Origin: an uncultured Erysipelotrichaceae bacterium
Lineage (GTDB): Bacteria; Bacillota_I; Bacilli_A; RF39; UBA660
Assembly (NCBI GenBank): GCA_902764545.1
Contig: CACWWC010000002.1
Span: 1-64,000 of the forward strand
Reading direction: 5' to 3'
DNA length: 64,000 nucleotides
Part shown: in pieces, positions 11,243 through 36,210 of the stretch
How positions within the stretch are numbered: the first letter of the stretch is position 1
Layout: each line of letters starts with the position of its first letter
The notes under the pieces: generated by a model
What the model was told of the DNA's origin: nothing
The model's input: only the letters and a program-made list of their open reading frames with translations
The model's database searches: none
Position numbers and translations under genes: made by a program

Positions 11243-11271
11243 ATTATATGCATTTACTTTAGTATTGTCAA
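11243..11271 (-). promoter_or_regulatory. Promoter of infC-rpmI-rplT
   Basis: TTGACA at 11266-11271 and TATAAT at 11243-11248, 17 bases apart: a consensus sigma-A promoter, one of the best in the window. Confidence 0.9.
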
Positions 11272-11285
11272 CAACTTTTTTATTT

Positions 11286-12518
11286 TTACCTCTTTTTTAA
11301 ATATACAAATGTATCCTTATCTTCTAATCCATTTAAATTACTATGAGTATTAGTCTCTTCGGTATCAAGCTTATATCTTCGCTTTAATAAAGAAAACGCA
11401 ACTAAATCATTTTGATATTGAATTGCCGATATAGGATTATTAATAAGAGAAAAGAAATTAATATCATCATTTGACATTCTAGAATTTAAAGATTTTGTAG
11501 AAACGCCTTGACAACAATATACAATACATCCATCATCACTAAGCAATGGAACAAGCTGCCTTGAAACCGCATCAGCAAACACCTCTCCATCAATATATTC
11601 TGGTATATTAGATAAATATATTGAATCAAACCCTTTAAATAAAGGACTGTTTAAATAACCAGAAGTTTTTAACGAATCTTTCAAACTTAAAATATCTGTT
11701 CTAATAAATTCAATATTTGCACCAGCTATCTTTTCTTTTGTCTTATTAAATGAATCTTCATTTTCTGTATAAGTACCAATATTTCTATCACCCATACATC
11801 CATGTAACATATCAAATATAGGAGCAATTTGTCCTGAATAATCAATTAACCTACAAATTTCAGATAATGAAAGCTTATTACTACTCACAAAACCAAATAA
11901 AGGGCCAAGTTTATGAGACATAAATTTCATATATTCATTTTTTGAATATCTTCCAGGATTAATTCCTAGTATATTATTAATTAAAAAATTATTGGAAAGT
12001 AAATTATATATATTATTATAGGCTTTATCATATTCTAAGAAAAAATAATTGAAAAAATTGCACACATTAGCATCCAAAAAAGATAAATCCTTAAGATTTC
12101 TATACATAGAACTAGATAAAAACTTATCAATAATTGCAGGCTCTGATAAAAAAGTAAAATAATCATTATAATTTAAGTTTTGTAATGCTGAAATTTTTAA
12201 ACTAGCAGGATATAATTGTAATCCATTTATATCAAAAGCCAAAATATTTTTTGCACCATGAAAAATAGACTCCAATACAAAATCTCCACTAGATAACACG
12301 GTAGCAATACAATCATCATCTTTAACAAAATTTTTAAGTACCATATCTTCTGTAGGATTTAAATACATTATAGAAGCATCCTTAAATAGCTGAGTAGATA
12401 ATTCTCCGTCACAATCAAGTTCAATACAAGAATTATCATTTATTTTACTCATATGTTCTGTAACTACACTAACATCTTCATAATCATTTAGATATTTAAT
12501 TTTATTCTCATTTAACAA
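11286..12518 (-). CDS. BtaA/DUF3419-like SAM-dependent transferase, paralog 3 (last in operon)
   Basis: About 410 residues. The region near residue 55-130 has YLNPTEDMVLKN, then ATVLSSGDFVLESIFHG, LAFDINGLQLYPASLK and ALQNLNYNDYFTFL. The order Gly-rich loop, acidic D-x-N strand end, then ASLKxxALQNxxYxxYxxFL resembles the SAM-binding half of the DUF3419 family. BtaA of that family transfers a 3-amino-3-carboxypropyl group to diacylglycerol. The C-terminal third (IYLSNIPEYIDG, LVPLLSDDGCIVYCCQG) looks like the end of a Rossmann methyltransferase fold. A TTG at 12518 with AGGTGAT upstream is the preferred start; GTG at 12527 is the alternative. Substrate unknown. Confidence 0.6.
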   Translation of the reverse strand: MLNENKIKYLNDYEDVSVVTEHMSKINDNSCIELDCDGELSTQLFKDASIMYLNPTEDMVLKNFVKDDDCIATVLSSGDFVLESIFHGAKNILAFDINGLQLYPASLKISALQNLNYNDYFTFLSEPAIIDKFLSSSMYRNLKDLSFLDANVCNFFNYFFLEYDKAYNNIYNLLSNNFLINNILGINPGRYSKNEYMKFMSHKLGPLFGFVSSNKLSLSEICRLIDYSGQIAPIFDMLHGCMGDRNIGTYTENEDSFNKTKEKIAGANIEFIRTDILSLKDSLKTSGYLNSPLFKGFDSIYLSNIPEYIDGEVFADAVSRQLVPLLSDDGCIVYCCQGVSTKSLNSRMSNDDINFFSLINNPISAIQYQNDLVAFSLLKRRYKLDTEETNTHSNLNGLEDKDTFVYLKKR

Positions 12519-12534
12519 AAATATCACCTACTAC

Positions 12535-13767
12535 CTATTTTTTCCTTACATAAACAAAAGTATCTTTTTTTTCTACTCCATCACCTGCAAAAGCTTCAGT
12601 CTCCACAGTATCCACATTATATTTTTTGCTAAGCATTGAGTATGATTCTATATTATTTCTTTGAGTTACAAAAGAGTAATCATTATAATTATCATGACTC
12701 CTTATATAATCTAACTCCGCCTGTGAAATATTTAATCTATTACTACTTATACCTTGACAACAATATAAAATAACACCATCATCCTGAAGTAAAGGCACCA
12801 GTTGATTATCAACAGTAGATACAAATTCATTAGATTTAATATATTCTGGAATATTAGATAAGTATATAACCTTAAATCCATTAAAATTACTATTACTTGT
12901 ATAGGATATCCTATCTAAATTATTCTTTAACTGAGAAAGATCCGTATTAATAAAACTAATTTTAACACCAGAAAGAGCATTTTTAGCCTCATTGAATGAA
13001 TCCTCATCATGCATATAAGTATTATCATAACTTTGCCCTATATACCCATGAATGTACTGAAAAATTGATTGAGATGAATAACCAAAAACAAGCATAGATA
13101 ATAAAGCATCCATTTGAACATAACTTAATGGAAATTTAAAACCAAGTTCTAGGCAAGAAGCTAACTTTTTTGACATAAACTTCATATATTCATCACGAGT
13201 ATAATCAGAAGGTTTGATTAGAGCTCTATCATTTATAAGCTTCTTTGAACAAAGAAAATTATAAATATAATCAACTGCTTCATTATACATATTTAAAAAA
13301 ACATCCATAAAATAATAAACATCACTACTACAATCAGAATTTTTTTTAAGTTCACTATACATATCTGTTGATAAAAAATCGCGAATATTATGAACATCAG
13401 ATAAAAAAGAGTTATAACTTTTATAATCCATATTTTGTAAAGCAGCTAACTTTAAACTTGCTATATAATACTGAGCTTTATTAATATCAAAAGTCAATAT
13501 ATCTTTTACTCCATGATAAACTGATTCTATTGCAAAGTCACCACTTGATAAAACTGTTGCAACTGAGTCAGCACCTTTAACAGCATCCTTTATGCATAAT
13601 TGCTCAGTAGGATTTAAATAAATAATTTCCCCTTTTTGAAACATCCTAGAAGTATTATTATATTCTCCCAATAAACTATTGTTAATGCACCTTAAGGCAT
13701 TATTCTCAATTTCCTCTTTATCAATATCATTCTTATCTAAATACTCTATTTTTACACTTTTACTCAC
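12535..13767 (-). CDS. BtaA/DUF3419-like SAM-dependent transferase, paralog 2
   Basis: 410 residues, aligned end to end with its two neighbours: YLNPTEQLCIKDAVKG, ATVLSSGDFAIESVYHG, LTFDINKAQYYIASLKL, ALQNMDYKSYNSFL, and in the C-terminal part IYLSNIPEYIKS and LVPLLQDDGVILYCCQG. The middle 150 residues are helical and poorly conserved among the three copies, which may set different substrates or partners. GTG start at 13767 with AAGGGGATT upstream. It lies 16 bases upstream of paralog 3 and 20 bases downstream of the J-domain gene. No signal peptide; probably cytosolic or bound to the membrane face. Confidence 0.6.
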   Translation of the reverse strand: MSKSVKIEYLDKNDIDKEEIENNALRCINNSLLGEYNNTSRMFQKGEIIYLNPTEQLCIKDAVKGADSVATVLSSGDFAIESVYHGVKDILTFDINKAQYYIASLKLAALQNMDYKSYNSFLSDVHNIRDFLSTDMYSELKKNSDCSSDVYYFMDVFLNMYNEAVDYIYNFLCSKKLINDRALIKPSDYTRDEYMKFMSKKLASCLELGFKFPLSYVQMDALLSMLVFGYSSQSIFQYIHGYIGQSYDNTYMHDEDSFNEAKNALSGVKISFINTDLSQLKNNLDRISYTSNSNFNGFKVIYLSNIPEYIKSNEFVSTVDNQLVPLLQDDGVILYCCQGISSNRLNISQAELDYIRSHDNYNDYSFVTQRNNIESYSMLSKKYNVDTVETEAFAGDGVEKKDTFVYVRKK

Positions 13768-13787
13768 TGCAAATCCCCTTTTTCCTA

Positions 13788-14228
13788 TTATTTCTTAAAA
13801 CCCTTTTTTTTCTCTTTATAAAAATCATCTTCAACCCTATATTTATTCATGGACTCATGCCAAATAGCATCAATTAAATCCTCCAAAGTTATTCTTGGTC
13901 CAATTATCAATTCATATAAAATAGAAATTAAGTCATCTATTTCTTCCTGACTATATTCTCGCTCACCTTCATGTGTAATAGTATTATTTGAGTATGCTTT
14001 AAGCTCTTGATTATACTTTTTTCTTAATTCCGGATTTTTTAAAACCTCATAAGCTTTATTGATTAACTTTAACTCTTCTTCAAAACTAATTTTATCTTCT
14101 AAAGAAAGATTTGGATTAGCATCAGGATGAAATCTTTTTGCTTTTTTTCTATATGCCTTTTTAATTTCTTCTTCTGTTGCATCACAACTAACTCCTAATA
14201 TTTCATAGTAGTTTATAAATTCAGTCAT
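13788..14228 (-). CDS. J-domain (DnaJ-like) protein within the BtaA-like operon
   Basis: Residues 5-72 are a complete J domain: YYEILGVSCDATEEEIKKAY, the HPD triad in RFHPDANPN, and INKAYEVLKNPELRKKYNQE. There is no Gly/Phe region, zinc-finger or CTD, so this is a short class III J protein that would hand a client to DnaK. The C-terminal 70 residues are helical and end in KEKKKGFKK. It is placed between paralogs 1 and 2 of the SAM enzymes with gaps of 10 and 20 bases, so the client may be one of these enzymes or their complex (inference). ATG 14228, AGGTG upstream. Confidence 0.88.
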   Translation of the reverse strand: MTEFINYYEILGVSCDATEEEIKKAYRKKAKRFHPDANPNLSLEDKISFEEELKLINKAYEVLKNPELRKKYNQELKAYSNNTITHEGEREYSQEEIDDLISILYELIIGPRITLEDLIDAIWHESMNKYRVEDDFYKEKKKGFKK

Positions 14229-14238
14229 ATTTAAACAC

Positions 14239-15495
14239 CTACCTCTTCTTTACATAAACAAATGAATCCTTATTATCATTTCCATTTGAAGGGCTTAATG
14301 AATCTCGTTCAACTATACTAACTTTATATTTACCTTTTAAATAACTATATCCTTGAATATCATTTATTTCCTTAACATAGGTATAAGGATTCATCCAAGG
14401 ATTATCATTTATAATTCTTGCTCTCATTCTCATAAAATTAAACTCCTGAGGACTAACATTTAACCTATCCTTATCTACACCTTGACAACAATACACTATA
14501 ACACCATCATCTTTAAGTAAAGGCATCAATTGACTATCTACTATTCTTGCAAAAATCGATCCACTAAGATATTCAGGAATGTTAGACAAATATAATGACT
14601 GAAAGCCACCAAAATTATTATCTAAATAACCAGAATCCTTTAAATTATTTAATAATTTAGACAAATCAGATTTAATAAATTTAATATTAGATTCTTGAAT
14701 AGAATCACACGTCTTTCTATATGACCTCTCATTTTCTATATAACTGCCAGGAGTTTTTATACCCATCAATCCATATATACATTTAAAAACATTTGATGCT
14801 TTATAATTATGATCTAGTAAAGAAACTAACAGATCAAACTCAAACTGTCCAACCATTTCCGGAAAATTAATATTTAATCTTTTAATAACTTTTTTTGCAA
14901 GCATTCTCAACTTTACATTATCAGATTCTTGCATAATTTTAATTTTCCATAATAATTCAATTTCAGGTTTATTCTTTAGATAAGATTTAAAATAATCACA
15001 TTCTTTTTTTCTTTGGTTAATAATAATATCAAAAAATTCAAATACAAAAGACTCATCATTTGATTTTTCTTTAATAAAAGAATAAATATCATTTGATAAA
15101 AATGAATCACAACAACTATTAGCTAAAAAATTATAATAATCTTCATAACCTACATTTTGAATAGCAGCAAGCTTTAATGAAGCACTGTATAATTGATTCT
15201 CATTTATATCAAAAGTTATAACTTCTCTTGCTCCATTAAATATCGAGTCTAGTGCAAAATCCCCACTACTTAGAACAGTTGCACAGACGCTATCTTTTTT
15301 TACAACATCCTTCATAACTAATTCTTCCGTTGGATTAAGATAAATACCAGAAGCATCTTGAAATAACTTTTCACTTAAATTAGTACTGTTATTTGGATTA
15401 CGTATTTCACTATTTAAAAATTCATAAGCAACATCAGATGCATTCCTACCAGATAACTCGTTTAATAACTCTATTTTCTTATCACCATAAGACAT
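14239..15495 (-). CDS. BtaA/DUF3419-like SAM-dependent transferase, paralog 1 (first in operon)
   Basis: About 418 residues. It shows the same signature as the two later copies: IYLNPTEELVMKDVV, ATVLSSGDFALDSIFNG, ITFDINENQLYSASLKL, AAIQNVGYEDYYNFL, then SLYLSNIPEYLSG and LMPLLKDDGVIVYCCQG. The segment ALDSIFNGAREVITFDINENQ is closest to the DUF3419 consensus of the three. The ATG at 15495 follows AGGGG; an in-frame TTG three codons upstream is not favoured. The gene stands directly behind the promoter at 15522-15550 and opens the operon paralog 1, J-protein, paralog 2, paralog 3. Confidence 0.62.
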   Translation of the reverse strand: MSYGDKKIELLNELSGRNASDVAYEFLNSEIRNPNNSTNLSEKLFQDASGIYLNPTEELVMKDVVKKDSVCATVLSSGDFALDSIFNGAREVITFDINENQLYSASLKLAAIQNVGYEDYYNFLANSCCDSFLSNDIYSFIKEKSNDESFVFEFFDIIINQRKKECDYFKSYLKNKPEIELLWKIKIMQESDNVKLRMLAKKVIKRLNINFPEMVGQFEFDLLVSLLDHNYKASNVFKCIYGLMGIKTPGSYIENERSYRKTCDSIQESNIKFIKSDLSKLLNNLKDSGYLDNNFGGFQSLYLSNIPEYLSGSIFARIVDSQLMPLLKDDGVIVYCCQGVDKDRLNVSPQEFNFMRMRARIINDNPWMNPYTYVKEINDIQGYSYLKGKYKVSIVERDSLSPSNGNDNKDSFVYVKKR

Positions 15496-15521
15496 ATATA
15501 CCAACCCCTAAACAACGACAT

Positions 15522-15550
15522 ATTATATACCATTATAGTCTAAATTGCAA
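15522..15550 (-). promoter_or_regulatory. Promoter of the BtaA-like operon
   Basis: TTGCAA at 15545-15550 and TATAAT at 15522-15527 with a 17-base spacer. Confidence 0.75.
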
Positions 15551-15635: not shown

Positions 15636-15998
15636 CTAAACAGCATTATTTCTAGGATTTATACCACTTGCAAGCATATTAGGATCAACTTCTTGAGCAG
15701 AATCAATTTTTACTCCTCGAGCAATAACATGTGGTGCAGTTGCATTATGAAAAGGATTATTAAAATATAAAGTAAATGAATCGCTTTCCTCATCATATGA
15801 TAAACTTTCAAGCTCACGATAAAGCTTATTATGTTCATCAGATAATGTCAAATCGCCAACATCAAGAGTTTCAATATCATAATAAGAATAATTACTTTTA
15901 ACACCAATATATGTTGAATTAGAAGTCGGAATAACAAAATTTTGTTCAACCGGCTTATATTCACCCATTGTTGAGCCACCACTAGAAAAAGTACCCAT
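15636..15998 (-). CDS. Hypothetical protein, 120 residues
   Basis: Not recognised. It has a Gly/Ser-rich start (GTFSSGGSTMGEYKP), a likely beta-rich middle with YIGVKSNYSYYDIETL and SFTLYFNNPFHNAT, and an Asn/Ala-rich end. No signal peptide or anchor. ATG 15998 with AAAGTGAT upstream. It lies 31 bases after the glutamine amidotransferase-like gene and may share its transcript. Confidence 0.55.
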   Translation of the reverse strand: MGTFSSGGSTMGEYKPVEQNFVIPTSNSTYIGVKSNYSYYDIETLDVGDLTLSDEHNKLYRELESLSYDEESDSFTLYFNNPFHNATAPHVIARGVKIDSAQEVDPNMLASGINPRNNAV

Positions 15999-18316: not shown

Positions 18317-18808
18317 TCAATTTTTTACATCTTTTCTATAGCTCTTAACACCCATACTAATCATTTTATTTTTAAATTCAAAAATAAAATCATCAGCTTT
18401 ATCACTTGTAAAAGCACCTGCATAATTCATAAACTCAAATGATATATTTTTTACTATACCATAATCTATATAATACTTTTTTAACTCCAAAATAACATCA
18501 ACTACTGCCTCACATTCTAGACTATCTAATTGAGCTGAGCTTTTCCAAATTGCAATATTATTATCACAGGCGAAAATATATAATTGGGGATTACCAAACT
18601 TTTTAGTTATTTTATGTAGTAAATCATGATGATAATATTTATCATCTCTACCCATACAAAAATAATAAACCCCATCAATCATTACACTAACAGCCTTAGA
18701 AGACATAACTCCATCAGAATAATTAAAGTAATCATAAATTCCATAGTCATTAATTATTTTATTCTTGAACATTCCAAGTTTAATTTTAATTACATTACTG
18801 TCAACCAT
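18317..18808 (-). CDS. Hypothetical protein, 163 residues
   Basis: Not recognised. It is an alpha/beta protein with alternating strands (AVSVMIDGVYYFCMG, QLYIFACDNNIAIWK) and a Lys-rich C-terminus. No membrane segment. ATG 18808 with GAGGAG upstream. It lies between the ABC transporter gene and the Gly T-box; its end abuts the T-box promoter region. Confidence 0.55.
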   Translation of the reverse strand: MVDSNVIKIKLGMFKNKIINDYGIYDYFNYSDGVMSSKAVSVMIDGVYYFCMGRDDKYYHHDLLHKITKKFGNPQLYIFACDNNIAIWKSSAQLDSLECEAVVDVILELKKYYIDYGIVKNISFEFMNYAGAFTSDKADDFIFEFKNKMISMGVKSYRKDVKN

Positions 18809-35149: not shown

Positions 35150-35226
35150 TGGTCGGGAAGACAGGATTTGAACCTGCAACCCCTAGGTCCCAAACCTAGT
35201 GCTCTACCAAATTGAGCCACTTCCCG
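35150..35226 (-). tRNA. tRNA-Pro (TGG)
   Basis: 77 bases, seven-pair acceptor CGGGAAG/CTTCCCG, anticodon loop TTTGGGA with TGG, T-arm GGTTCAAATCC, encoded CCA. Last gene of the tRNA operon. Confidence 0.96.
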
Positions 35227-35231
35227 AATCA

Positions 35232-35308
35232 TGGTGCGCTCGAAGGGATTCGAACCCCTGACCTTTTGGTTCGTAGCCAAACACTCTATCCAACTGAGCT
35301 ACGAGCGC
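35232..35308 (-). tRNA. tRNA-Arg (ACG)
   Basis: 77 bases, acceptor GCGCTCG/CGAGCGC, anticodon loop CTACGAA with ACG (A34 probably changed to inosine), T-loop GGTTCGAATCC, encoded CCA. Confidence 0.96.
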
Positions 35309-35345
35309 AAGACATGGAGTTTAGCTACTCAAATTCAAAATAAAA

Positions 35346-35421
35346 TGGTGGCTCCAGCGGGAATCGAACCAGCGACACAGGGATTTTCAGTCCCTTGCTC
35401 TACCGACTGAGCTATGAAGCC
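35346..35421 (-). tRNA. tRNA-Phe (GAA)
   Basis: 76 bases, acceptor GGCTTCA/TGGAGCC with one G-U, anticodon loop CTGAAAA with GAA, discriminator A, encoded CCA. It is the probable ligand of the T-box at 1510-1718. Confidence 0.96.
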
Positions 35422-35427
35422 AAATAA

Positions 35428-35504
35428 TGGCGGTTCCTACGGGACTCGAACCCGCGATCTTTTGCGTGACAGGCAAACGTGTTAACCAGCTGCACCAAGG
35501 AACC
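35428..35504 (-). tRNA. tRNA-Asp (GTC)
   Basis: 77 bases, acceptor GGTTCCT/AGGAACC, anticodon loop CTGTCAC with GTC, discriminator G, encoded CCA. Confidence 0.96.
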
Positions 35505-35513
35505 TTAAATAAT

Positions 35514-35590
35514 TGGTTGCGGGAAGAGGATTCGAACCTCTGACCTTCGGGTTATGAGCCCAACGAGCTACCAAACTGCTCCATCCCGCG
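35514..35590 (-). tRNA. Initiator tRNA-fMet (CAT)
   Basis: 77 bases. Unpaired C1-A72 at the acceptor end, anticodon loop CTCATAA with CAT and GGG/CCC pairs in the anticodon stem are the initiator marks. CCA encoded. Confidence 0.96.
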
Positions 35591-35597
35591 ATATAAA

Positions 35598-35690
35598 TGG
35601 CGGAGGAAAAGGGATTCGAACCCCTGCGCCGCTTGCACGACCTTCCGGTTTTCAAGACCGGTCCCTTCAACCAGACTTGGGTATTCCTCC
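35598..35690 (-). tRNA. tRNA-Ser (TGA)
   Basis: 93 bases with the long variable arm of class II tRNAs, anticodon loop CTTGAAA with TGA, discriminator G, encoded CCA. Confidence 0.96.
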
Positions 35691-35694
35691 ACGT

Positions 35695-35783
35695 TGGTGC
35701 CTAAGGCCGGACTTGAACCGGCACGAGGGTTGATTCTCGCAGGATTTTAAGTCCTGTGCGTCTACCAATTCCGCCACTCAGGC
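35695..35783 (-). tRNA. tRNA-Leu (TAA)
   Basis: 89 bases with a long variable arm, acceptor GCCTGAG/CTTAGGC, anticodon loop CTTAAAA with TAA, discriminator A, encoded CCA. Confidence 0.96.
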
Positions 35784-35786
35784 ACA

Positions 35787-35862
35787 TGGTGACCTGTATG
35801 AGATTCGAACTCATGACCCTTTGATTAAAAGTCAAATGCTCTACCAACTGAGCTAACAGATC
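35787..35862 (-). tRNA. tRNA-Lys (TTT)
   Basis: 76 bases, acceptor GATCTGT/ACAGGTC with one U-G, anticodon loop CTTTTAA with TTT, encoded CCA. Confidence 0.96.
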
Positions 35863-35875
35863 ATATAAATTAAAA

Positions 35876-35950
35876 TGGCTGCCTCGGTTAGATTCGAACT
35901 AACGCATGTCAGAGTCAAAGTCTGATGCCTTACCACTTGGCTACGAGGCA
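35876..35950 (-). tRNA. tRNA-Gln (TTG)
   Basis: 75 bases, acceptor TGCCTCG/CGAGGCA, anticodon loop CTTTGAC with TTG, discriminator G, encoded CCA. Confidence 0.96.
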
Positions 35951-35960
35951 AACTCAAAAG

Positions 35961-36045
35961 TGGTGGAGAGAGATGGATTCGAACCATCGAACTCAAAGAG
36001 AACAGATTTACAGTCTGTCGCGTTTAGCCACTTCGCTACCTCTCC
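35961..36045 (-). tRNA. tRNA-Tyr (GTA)
   Basis: 85 bases with a long variable arm as bacterial tRNA-Tyr, anticodon loop CTGTAAA with GTA, encoded CCA. Confidence 0.96.
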
Positions 36046-36052
36046 AAAAAAA

Positions 36053-36128
<76 letters not shown>

Positions 36129-36133
36129 ATAAA

Positions 36134-36210
36134 TGGTGGGCGATATAGGACTCGAACCTATGACCCCCTGCTTGTAAGGCAGGTGCTCTAACCAACTGAG
36201 CTAATCGCCC
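36134..36210 (-). tRNA. tRNA-Val (TAC)
   Basis: 77 bases, acceptor GGGCGAT/ATCGCCC, anticodon loop CTTACAA with TAC, encoded CCA. First gene of the tRNA operon. Confidence 0.96.

Follow-up and report, generated by a model that had tools for sequence, protein, structure and literature searches.

DUF3419 (PF11899) is a protein family that includes BtaA, the S-adenosylmethionine (SAM):diacylglycerol 3-amino-3-carboxypropyltransferase (acp transferase). BtaA has been named as an acp transferase that is not evidently homologous to NAS, CntL or MccD (PMC10491745). By title, a full-text literature search returned no papers on bacterial DUF3419 proteins, the matches all being on eukaryotes, and the bacterial family considered here appears to be undescribed in the literature searched.

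We analyzed a 64,000-nucleotide stretch of DNA from an uncultured member of the Bacilli (hereafter the window), in which three genes for DUF3419-like proteins (P1, P2 and P3, together the trio) are interspersed with a gene for a J-domain protein. In the direction of transcription, the features of the locus are:

15522-15550, minus strand: promoter-like site of the trio unit preceding P3, TTGCAA-17-TATAAT (10/12, consensus scan only)
14239-15504, minus strand: P3, predicted DUF3419-like SAM enzyme of 421 aa, first in the unit (PF11899, 33.5 bits)
13788-14228, minus strand: J-domain protein of 146 aa with an intact J domain, HPD present (PF00226, E 1.4e-21)
12535-13767, minus strand: P2, predicted DUF3419-like SAM enzyme of 410 aa, paralogue of P1 and P3 (PF11899, 29.7 bits)
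11286-12527, minus strand: P1, predicted DUF3419-like SAM enzyme of 413 aa, paralogue of P2 and P3 (PF11899, 31.5 bits)
11243-11271, minus strand: promoter-like site after P1 that would serve infC, TTGACA-17-TATAAT (12/12 consensus)

The genes are transcribed in the order P3, J-domain gene, P2 and P1, with spacers of 10, 20 and 7 bases, and probably form one transcription unit, the promoter sites being consensus matches rather than proof of an operon. The putative infC promoter likely marks the end of this unit. The start codon of P3 is probably the ATG at 15495 and not the TTG at 15504, since AGGGG precedes that ATG and a -10 box lies nearby. Elsewhere in the window, two ORFs (15636-15998, 120 aa; 18317-18808, 163 aa) are without a family match above cut-off, and no counterpart of the former is apparent at the sites in G060 and G030 described below. 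A cluster of twelve tRNA genes and a T-box leader were also identified with Rfam (35153-36210 and 1524-1719).

The initial annotation had described the locus as an operon in which the J-domain protein may be a partner that helps fold or load the three enzymes. While the single transcription unit stands as probable, the partnership does not: among 39 genomes of the genus, no counterpart of the J-protein was found beyond DnaJ-type matches confined to residues 3-100. A J gene was likewise absent beside the long form of the family (the type to which P1-P3 belong) at L052, L053 and L054 and from the other family loci whose ORFs were read, and the set of trio plus J gene was not found in related genomes. 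On this distribution, the J-protein looks like a genome-specific passenger of the operon, with an apparently accidental placement. A dedicated four-gene system, with the J-protein loading or folding a hetero-complex, would suit the tight packing and the one probable promoter, but it is barely credible given that the J gene is unique to its own genome, that relatives carry single J-free long copies, and that no subunit has lost its conserved residues.

The three enzymes themselves are related over most of their length. Pairwise BLAST comparisons of P1-P3 gave 261-283 bits (E 1e-88 to 1e-97; 40-43% identity over ~390 aa) versus at most 23.5 bits for shuffled copies, and YLNPTE, ATVLSSGDF, FDIN, ASLK, QN..Y, SNIPEY and YCCQG are all contained in the three-way alignment, which bears out the earlier description of three adjacent paralogues of ~410 aa with shared motifs. 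A recent local triplication was dropped as an origin of the trio, since the three are just 40-43% identical and a trio clade finds neither support nor rejection in the tree (p-AU 0.515), and no date is proposed for their divergence.

DUF3419 is the only Pfam family above cut-off in P1, P2 and P3, all of which exceed its threshold of 28.2 bits. The DUF3419-like character that had been assigned to their first half is thereby upheld over the SAM-binding part only, the match being limited to model positions 22-110 of 385 (about the first quarter). Full-length DUF3419 relatives (L076 and L081) match positions 4-383, and the single long forms of relatives of the source genome fall below the cut-off (16.7-25.4 bits). 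In profile comparisons, compact members of the same family align with full-length DUF3419 across the whole Rossmann fold, including both halves (prob 96.9, 196 columns), and with the window proteins (prob 98.7, 208 columns); the long form aligned with full-length DUF3419 over 62 columns only (prob 64.9). The trio shares with full-length proteins the [ED], SGD, D and S-[ND]-[IV]-x-E-Y residues, but differs from them in having its own helical insertion and an invariant YCCQ, in belonging to a family amplified into arrays, and in having no lipid context. It is also without the central NN-RFK...FFS...LGRDK..FKY block and the C-terminal YWN..R motif, which are present in the full-length DUF3419 alignment and missing from the long-form alignment.

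These differences bear on the suggestion, made in the initial annotation, of BtaA-type lipid synthesis. A betaine-lipid system acting on diacylglycerol would be in line with the inclusion of BtaA in DUF3419 and with the equivalence of SNIPEY in the trio to SNIFEY in full-length DUF3419. However, the absence of the middle block and the C-terminal motif of full-length DUF3419 weakens this reading; furthermore, no lipid gene adjoins the trio and one lipid hardly explains the approximately 42 paralogues of this genome, so that we consider a betaine-lipid role very improbable.

An AlphaFold2 model of P3 built from six long-form sequences (pLDDT 78, pTM 0.80) adopts a predicted class I SAM-enzyme fold by structure comparison, with class I SAM methyltransferases matching at Z about 12-13.8, as would be expected from the SAM-type fold anticipated earlier. 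The top match is 6ulo, an uncharacterised Leptospira protein (Z 13.8, 247 residues, rmsd 4.3), although it is only 13% identical to P3 and leads other structural matches narrowly. The class I SAM methyltransferases NodS and NNMT share the Rossmann fold (Z about 12 over 175-220 residues) but are about 11-13% identical to P3, a likeness of fold from which the transferred group is not inferable. Because the structural matches are nearly tied, the model supports a SAM enzyme and says nothing finer. Sequence searches found neither a solved DUF3419 structure nor a convincing solved relative, and a viral fold library yielded mostly generic SAM-methyltransferase-type matches.

That NodS and NNMT are methyltransferases raises the alternative that the family consists of SAM-dependent methyltransferases whose substrates are small molecules or RNA, with DUF3419 ancestry but without acp chemistry. 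Weak Pfam matches of compact and singleton members to CheR, NodS and Methyltransf_12, together with the adjacency of several family loci to translation genes, point the same way. On the other hand, most members tested score best against DUF3419, the family retains the same residue set, and fold alone does not discriminate methyl from acp transfer. We therefore regard the methyltransferase alternative as unlikely, though worth keeping in view.

Residue conservation was assessed in an alignment of 146 proteins comprising arrays (65 members), singletons, long forms and 8 full-length DUF3419 proteins, with residue numbers following P3 (printed alignment positions plus 24). Conservation was found at D99 (146/146), D82 (144/146), N101 (141/146), E or D60 (143/146), S307 (143/145) and N or D308 (144/145), and the E/D, SGD, D and S-[ND] set of DUF3419 is thus present in the family. 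At the level of sequence, this conservation argues for working rather than decayed SAM enzymes. For the hetero-complex that had been entertained for the trio, a division into catalytic and non-catalytic subunits is unlikely because P1, P2 and P3 each retain every conserved active-site-type residue.

Of the 386 genomes sampled from the GTDB family to which the source belongs, 165 carry family members, as do 82 of the 150 genera, and in a phylum-wide sample of 392 genomes the matches outside this GTDB family were full-length DUF3419 proteins only. From this sampling, the family is judged to be characteristic of one GTDB family of uncultured Bacilli. Most genomes of the genus have zero to seven members, with roughly 20 in G030 and roughly 10 in G060, the two genus relatives that also carry the long form. 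Each of these two has a single long copy at the same site, flanked by infC and a gene for a C26-type amidotransferase and unaccompanied by a J gene. Long forms are rare: full-length copies were found only in the source genome (three), G030, G060 and G822 (L053), with a distant version in G864. By these comparisons, the trio represents an uncommon, long branch within a family that this lineage has expanded into arrays of at least two dozen genes. One compact member was observed in an Alphaproteobacteria-labelled MAG (Nt197P3bin78; L055 7518-8273), which could reflect transfer or mis-binning.

Searching with the trio, and then with the relatives found, recovered about 42 family members in the source genome, most of which are compact (about 270 aa). 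Among these, 28 compact members lie in tandem on two contig ends (L059 6035-16625; L060 5905-15853; L105), sixteen of them following a CotE-like gene at the C12 contig end and twelve on contig C29 extending to rpsP. The order of CotE (by Pfam), three family genes and rpsP is uninterrupted in G060, and the two contig ends therefore probably flank one array of at least 28 genes between CotE and rpsP, a size that rests on joining the two contigs by synteny. Identity among the 28 proteins is 27-47% (mean 37%), and adjacent ones are no closer than distant ones; judged by these identities, they form a star-like set without recent copies. Variation among the array paralogues is concentrated in the cap region and the ends rather than in the SAM motifs. 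The neighbours of family members are mostly unrelated housekeeping genes, and this context gives no functional clue. For a small genome of about 1.6 Mb, carrying approximately 42 diverged, residue-intact SAM-type enzymes is not readily explained by any pathway known to us.

A second array was identified in another genus, where G292 carries 24 tandem family members between gapdh and pgk and G169 carries 17 members at the same site, some of them broken (L095, L096, L097, L132 and L133). As the tree places the G292/G169 array and the CotE-rpsP array in different clades, both well supported, arrays are taken to have arisen at least twice. The 16 orthologue pairs of the G292/G169 array have a median dN/dS of 0.19 (0.12-0.38) versus 0.047 for neighbouring genes, values that describe the compact array of a sister genus and not the trio. 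Given this median, the products of the sister-genus array are maintained, yet they are evolving faster than housekeeping proteins. The array was also considered as a hot spot of recombination or transfer, which was rejected because its low dS is matched by the right-hand neighbours (Mann-Whitney p 0.53, both flanks added).

Such arrays would be explained if the family consisted of fast-evolving conflict proteins (for defence, counter-defence or recognition) built on a SAM fold. The large size of the tandem arrays, in which genes are gained, lost and broken, the star-like divergence, and a dN/dS about four times that of neighbouring genes are all consistent with this idea. However, PADLOC gave no convincing match, its one hit being weak (E 6e-4) and confined to a short stretch, and no array-specific recombination signal was seen. 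Neither the compact nor the long-form profile found a relative in viral contigs, and none was found in phages with one compact member as query or in plasmids with P3 as query; a mobile or phage origin of the family was set aside on these searches, which also speak against conflict proteins. Overall, a conflict role appears distinctly unlikely.

In our judgement, the chances are about even that P1-P3, as members of a family that derives from DUF3419 and is characteristic of a single GTDB family, are active enzymes catalysing SAM-dependent group transfer. This reading draws on homology, the predicted fold, conserved residues, amplification, and purifying selection in the sister array, from which we infer SAM use, the chemistry and the diversity of acceptors. 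SAM would be bound at the Rossmann core by the SGD loop and the acidic residue of FD-N, with the glutamate of N-P-T-E and the S-N-I-P-E-Y loop, which correspond to residues kept in full-length DUF3419, probably holding the transferred group and the acceptor. The chemistry is perhaps acp transfer, with methyl transfer as the alternative. Given that conservation lies in the SAM motifs and variability in the helical cap and ends, the paralogues (three in the trio, about 42 in the genome) probably carry out the same chemistry on different acceptors; beside the trio, there is no gene that points to an acceptor. More tentatively, the family may descend from a BtaA-like ancestor and have been amplified in this lineage at least twice into tandem arrays of two to three dozen diverged but residue-intact genes, possibly to serve many acceptors or conflict.

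Further relatives were observed in other settings. In other families of the class, a full-length DUF3419 gene adjoins a gene for a protein ending in a PEP-utiliser mobile domain (L077, L079, L081 and L083), with an AMP-binding enzyme also beside it in L077 and L081, and this neighbourhood possibly represents a separate pathway. A 493-aa protein with a DUF3419-like C-terminal part (L056 6075-8691) lies near a short radical-SAM ORF and a small ORF containing several cysteines, and other long relatives, of 517 aa, are found at L110 and L111.
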